Origin: Bacteroidales bacterium
GTDB lineage: Bacteria > Bacteroidota > Bacteroidia > Bacteroidales > Dysgonomonadaceae
Assembly (NCBI GenBank): GCA_012727735.1
Contig: JAAYGM010000240.1
Location: 1-42,578 of the forward strand
DNA length: 42,578 nucleotides
Direction of reading: 5' to 3'
Made by a program: the position numbers and the translations under genes. This document shows positions 1 to 790 of the stretch, piece by piece; position 1 is the first letter of the stretch, and each line of letters begins with the position of its first letter. The notes under the pieces are model-generated. The model did not search any database and was not told the origin of the DNA. It saw only the letters and a list, made by a program, of their open reading frames with translations.

Positions 1-559
1 CACGCAGCATCTCCTCCCTGGCCAGAATAAAAAATCGGGTGAAGTTTCTTTTGTTGGTCTCAATACCATCCGCGAGGACCTCCAGACCATACATCTCAGC
101 AGCGAGTGAGCTGCATATTGCAGCTGTCCCTGTCAACCCCCTGTCGCGTATCTCTTTTGCAGCCAGGGCGGTATCATCATGCTCCACCACCCTGATTCCG
201 GGAAGTGTGTCGAGAAAATCCTCACACTGCATCAGCGCCATAGGATGTGACATCACCTCTTTCACGTCTTGTAACGCCTGGCCTGGAAGAGTTGCCAGTG
301 AATGCGTTATACGCAGCTTATGCTCACCTGCTATCTGCAGATTATTCATTTTCAGAAGATCGTGGTTTTGCAACAGACTCCCGGCAATGGTATTTTCAAT
401 GGCCATGACACCAATAAGCATCGGATCTTTTTCGGCCTCCGCAAAAATATCGCGAAAAGTGCTGCAGGGAACAATCTCCAGCTCTTCACCCCAGAAATAC
501 CTGCGGGCCGCAATCTCATGATATGCACCGGCTCCACCCTGAATAGCTACTCGTTTCAT
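1..559 (-). CDS. pheA: prephenate dehydratase, 3' part cut by window edge
   Basis: Reverse-strand translation from ATG at 559: MKRVAIQGGAGAYHEIAARRYFWGEELEIVPCSTFRDIFAEAEKDPMLIGVMAIENTIAGSLL...GIETNKRNFTRFFIL; prephenate dehydratase core with the TRF motif. Absent from the ORF track because no stop falls inside the window. Confidence 0.93.
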   Translation of the reverse strand, partial: MKRVAIQGGAGAYHEIAARRYFWGEELEIVPCSTFRDIFAEAEKDPMLIGVMAIENTIAGSLLQNHDLLKMNNLQIAGEHKLRITHSLATLPGQALQDVKEVMSHPMALMQCEDFLDTLPGIRVVEHDDTALAAKEIRDRGLTGTAAICSSLAAEMYGLEVLADGIETNKRNFTRFFILAREEMLR

Positions 560-584
560 ACAATCTCATTCTTTATTATCGCTC

Positions 585-624
585 AAAAAAAAAATCCCAT
601 CGTGTAATCGACAGGATTTTTTTT
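585..624 (-). terminator. intrinsic terminator acting as attenuator in the pheA leader
   Basis: Minus strand AAAAAAAATCCTGTCG-ATTACA-CGATGGGATTTTTTTTTT: 16-bp stem (two G.U wobbles), 6-nt loop, T-tract, ending about 25 nt before the pheA ATG. Confidence 0.75.
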
Positions 625-675
625 ATCTGATATGACTTTTTAACTTATTCACATTCTGCATATAAAATCCTGCCT

Positions 676-732
676 TTACCTACTAAAGTAAAAGTAAAAC
701 CAGAAAGAAAATGCAAAAGTTGAATTGTTCAC
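676..732 (-). CDS. putative aromatic leader peptide, (M)NNSTFAFSFWFYFYFSR
   Basis: GTG AAC AAT TCA ACT TTT GCA TTT TCT TTC TGG TTT TAC TTT TAC TTT AGT AGG TAA on the minus strand; 6 Phe, 2 Tyr and 1 Trp in the last 13 residues; lies between a predicted promoter and a hairpin/T-tract upstream of pheA. Confidence 0.75.
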   Translation of the reverse strand: MNNSTFAFSFWFYFYFSR

Positions 733-760
733 TTTGTTACTGTTTTGTGAATAATAAATG

Positions 761-790
761 CAAATGTACAACTTTTTTCATATAACCAAA
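761..790 (-). promoter_or_regulatory. Bacteroidetes-type promoter for the pheA leader
   Basis: Minus strand TTTG (787-790), 18-nt spacer, TACATTTG (761-768), matching the Bacteroidetes TTTG/TAnnTTTG consensus. Confidence 0.6.

Follow-up and report, generated by a model that had tools for sequence, protein, structure and literature searches.

The pheA operon of a Bacteroidales bacterium of the family Dysgonomonadaceae is very probably controlled by a ribosome-mediated transcription attenuator that would sense the charging of tRNA-Phe and tRNA-Tyr, and, as judged by sequence comparison, the same leader arrangement is found through most of the class Bacteroidia. An earlier note on this DNA had proposed that the attenuation logic of E. 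coli pheL and trpL is used at this operon, a proposal that the comparative tests described here support. The four features by which such an attenuator is recognised, namely an ORF with codons for the end products, an intrinsic terminator, an antiterminator exclusive of it and the placement of the stall site, were all found upstream of pheA.

Organization of the Leader Region

The window, i.e., the whole stretch of 42,578 nucleotides that was analysed (contig JAAYGM010000240.1 of assembly GCA_012727735.1), carries the following parts of the leader region:

790-761, minus strand: Bacteroidota-type promoter-like site, TTTG-N18-TACATTTG
732-676, minus strand: leader peptide ORF of 18 codons with a GTG start, VNNSTFAFSFWFYFYFSR, then stop
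718-654, minus strand: 1:2 hairpin, from folding and covariation
674-664, minus strand: segment 2, the 5' strand of the antiterminator, GGCAGGATTTT, one nt past the leader stop
624-609, minus strand: segment 3, the terminator 5' arm and antiterminator 3' strand, AAAAAAAATCCTGTCG
608-603, minus strand: terminator loop
602-585, minus strand: segment 4, the terminator 3' arm and U tract, from folding and covariation
2..559, minus strand: pheA (prephenate dehydratase; Pfam PDT, E 4e-57), first gene of the operon, truncated where the contig stops

The promoter-like site, segment 2, both terminator arms, the T tract and the gap of 25 nt between the 3' end of the terminator (585) and the ATG of pheA (559) all lie where the earlier note had placed them. 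The same is true of the leader ORF, whose start, written there as (M), is a GTG codon. The reported content of six Phe, two Tyr and one Trp also holds, with the correction that these nine aromatics are spread over 11 residues (residues 6–16) and not 13. Segment 1 and the 1:2 fold, missing from that description, are also present.

Transcription would begin at about 755, upstream of the leader. The sequence TAnnTTTG was found at most 70 nt upstream of the leader in 126 of 155 Bacteroidia modules, compared with 6.4% of shuffles. The start codons of the leaders are putative; relatives have ATG or GTG at the matching position, with the aromatic block kept. An in-frame upstream TTG (LYICIYYSQNSNK...), which overlaps the promoter, was considered as the start and rejected, as relatives have ATG at the position of the GTG. 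The intergenic region is shared with a divergent gene on the plus strand (936-2921), which encodes a transporter of the POT/PTR2 family.

RNA Folds and Chance Expectation

The folding energy of the region 732-585 was −41.4 kcal/mol (z = −5.6) and that of the terminator (624-585) was −17.2 kcal/mol. When the terminator 3' arm is withheld the antiterminator folds, with 674-664 paired to 620-610 at 11 of 11 positions including one G.U (duplex z about −5.4), which confirms the 11-nt pairing of segment 2 with the terminator 5' arm described earlier. In the 1:2 fold, the run of Phe/Tyr codons is paired with the stretch that contains segment 2, by an outer helix joining 718-711 (TTTTGCAT) to 661-654 and an inner helix joining 705-688 to 683-668, the latter taking in most of segment 2. 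The 1:2, antiterminator and terminator folds are mutually exclusive.

For comparison among loci, an aromatic leader was defined as an ORF upstream of pheA with at least seven aromatic residues in 12, and a full module as such a leader together with an antiterminator (p ≤ 0.05) and a terminator. When the regions upstream of pheA in Bacteroidia were dinucleotide-shuffled, no full module arose in 910 trials and, given this result and the z-scores of the fold and of the antiterminator, the module is far from chance.

These data bear on the suggestion that the region holds an ordinary terminator beside an aromatic ORF that arose by chance, or else an attenuator of the T-box or another riboswitch type, acting independently of the ORF. 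Phe codons are indeed favoured by T-rich DNA, but the shuffles preserve this T-richness, and both the Phe/Tyr-rich ORF and the pairing are conserved over the class. With regard to riboswitches, an Rfam search of the window at gathering and relaxed thresholds found nothing above cut-off, and T-box models gave no match in the window at the gathering threshold and none in 540-960, around the leader, even at E up to 5. This explanation is scarcely credible beside an attenuator worked by translation of the leader. Weak Rfam matches to Phe_leader, Thr_leader and rnk_leader align largely through the terminator. Phe_leader (RF01859) scored 25.1 bits (E 0.046), below its gathering cut-off of 55 bits, and Bacteroid-trp (RF01692) had no match in the window. 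The comparison with Rfam leader families called for in the earlier note was made in this way, and it places the window element outside both.

Compensatory Changes

Compensatory changes in the two alternative pairings, which had been put forward as a check on the attenuator, were found in both the terminator and the antiterminator. Covariation was counted on 51 sequences, the counts being of sequences and not of events. In the terminator, 98.2% of cells were paired and 31 were changed on both sides (shuffle mean 9.4), and the antiterminator had 95.7% paired and 15 changed on both sides (shuffle mean 3.1), with such changes in five of its pairs. For the 1:2 structure the values were 85.1% and 28 (shuffle mean 12.1); its outer helix was paired in 90.4% of cells, with changes on both sides in six of eight pairs. 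The paired share fell to 38–60% in slid controls.

One change in the outer 1:2 helix replaces the codon GCA (Ala) by ACA (Thr) along with a change of its partner (GC 26, AU 13). It is relevant to the idea that the leader is a nascent-chain arrest peptide resembling TnaC or ErmL, with a sequence that detects a metabolite, for instance free Phe or Tyr, within the exit tunnel. An FYFYF motif is well conserved in the family, as this idea would have it. However, the conserved non-aromatic residue (A7/T7) is accounted for by the RNA pairing in the outer helix, and over the class only the density of Phe and Tyr and the distance to segment 2 are conserved, not the peptide sequence. An arrest peptide is consequently highly improbable, and stalling at Phe/Tyr codons is the reading followed below.

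Conservation across Bacteroidia

Aromatic leaders were found upstream of pheA at 87 of 88 loci of the family (35 of 1760 shuffles), which agrees with the expectation, set out beforehand, that homologous upstream regions should keep an aromatic-rich ORF. They were also found at 60 of 68 further loci of the order (25 of 1360 shuffles) and, less uniformly, at 18 of 29 class loci outside the order (8 of 580 shuffles), this last count becoming 15 of 26 once three order genomes that had been drawn again are removed. Dinucleotide shuffles gave a leader in at most 2% of cases. Full modules were present at 155 of 182 Bacteroidia loci. The 28 pheA loci from other classes of the phylum had neither an aromatic leader nor a full module. 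Kinship among loci was handled only partly, by counting families, and on this basis the leader was found in 49 of the 58 families for which a usable region upstream of pheA was available. A covariance model built from 51 family sequences had one strong site in the window genome, at pheA, and detected the element in most loci of the order and class and in none of the 28 outgroup loci.

The sole family locus without the leader (L068, genome G041) has, immediately upstream of pheA, an ORF on the minus strand (about 300-1301) which by eye resembles a group II intron reverse transcriptase, and this insertion apparently separates pheA from its attenuator. Another relative carries the leader MIGSVFAFGFWFYFYFSR (contig G051:C2). 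At 11 loci from nine other families of the order, two full Phe/Tyr modules occur in series before pheA (L138, L139, L159, L120, L149, L096, L109, L128, L142, L154, and L119). The covariance model matches twice in six of these loci, and the weakest cases are L119 and L154.

Register between the Phe/Tyr Codons and Segment 2

Segment 2 was searched for from the last Phe/Tyr codon and its pairing compared with mononucleotide shuffles of the segment 2 region; it beat 95% of these in 150 of the 159 loci where both leader and terminator had been detected. The distance from the last Phe/Tyr codon to the start of segment 2 in these 150 loci had a median of 10 nt (10th–90th percentile 8–12). The stop codon varied in position by 45 nt: the start of segment 2 lay between 42 nt upstream and 3 nt downstream of the ORF end, and in some families the ORF extends across segment 2.

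The leading edge of a ribosome lies about 15 nt from the P-site codon. With this approximate footprint, a ribosome whose A site holds the last Phe codon would extend as far as 675, the nucleotide just before segment 2, and a ribosome at the leader stop codon would cover nine of the 11 nt of segment 2. Since the register is conserved while the stop codon wanders, and given this ribosome geometry, it is stalling at the Phe/Tyr codons that would set the switch, and not termination at the stop, and the register is the best evidence for this. The earlier account, in which a stalled ribosome frees segment 2 and an advancing one masks it, is retained with one amendment: the conserved register is to the last Phe/Tyr codon and not to the stop at which that account had placed the ribosome.

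The attenuator may thus be pictured as follows. As RNA polymerase transcribes the leader ORF, a ribosome would follow it closely, a coupling that we assume for Bacteroidota. When Phe-tRNA or Tyr-tRNA is short, the ribosome would stall within the Phe/Tyr run and break the 1:2 hairpin; segment 2 would stay free and pair with segment 3, the terminator would be blocked and the operon transcribed. When both charged tRNAs are plentiful, the ribosome would move beyond the last Phe/Tyr codon and mask segment 2 with its leading edge, allowing segment 3 to pair with segment 4, and transcription would end near 585. Without translation of the leader, 1:2 would form and termination would follow by default. 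Ribosome stalling, termination and the physiological signals are in each case deduced from the sequences.

Operon Content and the Amino Acids Probably Sensed

The operon carries on beyond the contig end in another contig of the same genome (G000:C16, locus L032), in the order C-terminal part of pheA, class I/II aminotransferase, DAHP synthase/chorismate mutase fusion and prephenate dehydrogenase. With this gene content, it spans the entry to the pathway as well as its Phe and Tyr branches. The pheA gene is split between the end of G000:C141 and the start of G000:C16, contigs which overlap by more than 100 nt, and the split is an assembly break and not a gene break. Named relatives of this PheA are from Proteiniphilum (91% and below), Petrimonas, Fermentimonas and other Dysgonomonadaceae.

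Tyr sensing had been mentioned as a possibility in the earlier note and is now well supported, because the Tyr content of the leaders tracks operon gene content. Among 162 leaders the 12-residue block has a median of six Phe and three Tyr, and Tyr is present in 160. Downstream gene content was examined at 79 loci, and Tyr content was compared for leaders with at least 6 of 12 aromatic residues that were followed by 2.5 kb or more of sequence. Of 67 such leaders before aromatic operons, 66 had two or more Tyr codons (mean 3.7). Mixed Phe/Tyr leaders precede operons in which pheA is accompanied by DAHP synthase/chorismate mutase, and frequently by tyrA, as in the window genome. The clear Phe-only leaders (L094, L145, and L098, with 0, 0, and 1 Tyr) come from three different families and all precede a stand-alone pheA (Fisher p = 2.8e-4, with only three such leaders and a Tyr threshold chosen after the first cases had been seen). 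A weak 'leader' at L113 (6 of 12, also before a stand-alone pheA) is probably due to chance.

The alternative here is a sensor of Phe only, like E. coli pheL, in which the Tyr codons are structural, through the TTT-TAC-TTT pairing in 1:2, or tolerated by chance. Phe does exceed Tyr in the leaders, and the 1:2 helix includes part of the Phe/Tyr run, so that within the family the Tyr codons could be structural. Against this, Tyr is kept in nearly all leaders across families of widely differing sequence and is lost where pheA stands alone, and one family (f15) has both states, with a Phe-only leader before a stand-alone gene (L094) and a mixed leader before an operon (L117). We consider a Phe-only sensor unlikely. 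The gene-content rule gives strong but not final support to dual sensing, and the attenuator probably senses both Phe and Tyr.

Trp sensing, which had also been raised as a possibility, is unsupported and was rejected, as a single Trp codon occurs in 44 of the 162 leaders, none in 118 and never more than one. Taken as a whole, the element is rather more probably than otherwise a class-wide RNA regulator of two amino acids whose codons evolve with operon content and which has been doubled serially in several families.

Other Probable Attenuators in the Genome

Upstream of hisG in the same genome (G000:C260, L221) there is a His-rich leader, MKANTFHHHHFHTCSQAR, followed by a terminator-like hairpin, and His-rich leaders precede hisG in seven of eight relatives read. 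The one Bacteroid-trp match of the genome above cut-off (G000:C89:22-156, L230) lies on a contig other than the window and encodes a WW leader, MTNLLMNGYWWRCLQLTKS, before a terminator; this leader has a conserved LQL-KS end and is common to relatives. With His and Trp leaders also in the genome, classical attenuation seems to be a general tool of this lineage.

Relation to Known Systems

The trpL and pheL attenuators use mutually exclusive 1:2, 2:3 and 3:4 folds, and E. coli pheL has a Phe-rich leader with a terminator just ahead of pheA. The window element shares all of these features. Unlike pheL, it mixes Phe and Tyr codons, precedes an operon that adds DAHP synthase/chorismate mutase and tyrA, and has a Bacteroidota promoter, and in its relatives the stop codon is not fixed relative to segment 2. 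The mechanism is therefore known from pheL and trpL; the pheA element itself has neither an Rfam family nor a name. Its class-wide extent, register, Phe/Tyr rule and tandem copies were not found in the literature searched, which left most subscription journals outside. A comparative paper on attenuators by Vitreschak et al. from 2004 reportedly mentions Bacteroidetes/Chlorobi.

Bacteroid-trp (RF01692; PMC2864571) is likewise a leader element of Bacteroidota, and in the matches examined a short ORF that encodes a WW(W) run is followed by a terminator; unlike the window element it has Trp codons and a different sequence. The idea of attenuation is not new for the phylum, since in Flavobacterium psychrophilum the regions ahead of amino-acid operons are described as giving strong clues for attenuation by leader peptides (PMC9723704). 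The same paper reports transcribed, structured 5' elements without Rfam hits upstream of pheA and hisG, which are conserved in other genera of Flavobacteriaceae. The pheA element among them resembles that of the window in being structured and upstream of pheA; the accessible text does not give its peptide, pairings or Tyr content and states its distribution for Flavobacteriaceae genera only (PMC9723704). Candidate uORFs with notable Phe and Tyr occur before shikimate-metabolism genes in five genomes, none from Bacteroidota, and the part of the article that holds them (Fig. 6b) describes no alternative pairings (PMC6429828). Short ORFs of Bacteroides thetaiotaomicron reminiscent of attenuator leaders have also been reported (PMC7366714). 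As in the 11 tandem pheA loci, two successive leader ORFs lie in one 5' region in the tandem attenuators of Salmonella mgtCBR, but there the signals differ between mgtM and mgtP, being ATP and Pro (PMC3641672), whereas the tandem pheA leaders all carry Phe/Tyr.

Biological Meaning

Attenuation is textbook knowledge in E. coli, and for Bacteroidota it is mentioned only in passing in the papers found. By comparative evidence the pheA element is a very clear case outside Proteobacteria. Its short leader ORF is easily missed by annotation, and an Rfam family could be started from the alignment and covariance model. The element also implies that transcription and translation are closely coupled in Bacteroidia. 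Its codon mix tracks operon content, and Phe/Tyr sensing can readily be tested with it in bacteria of the gut and of digesters. If the two-amino-acid reading is true, leader composition would record the end products to which an operon responds, and ribosome and polymerase must be tightly coupled in Bacteroidia.
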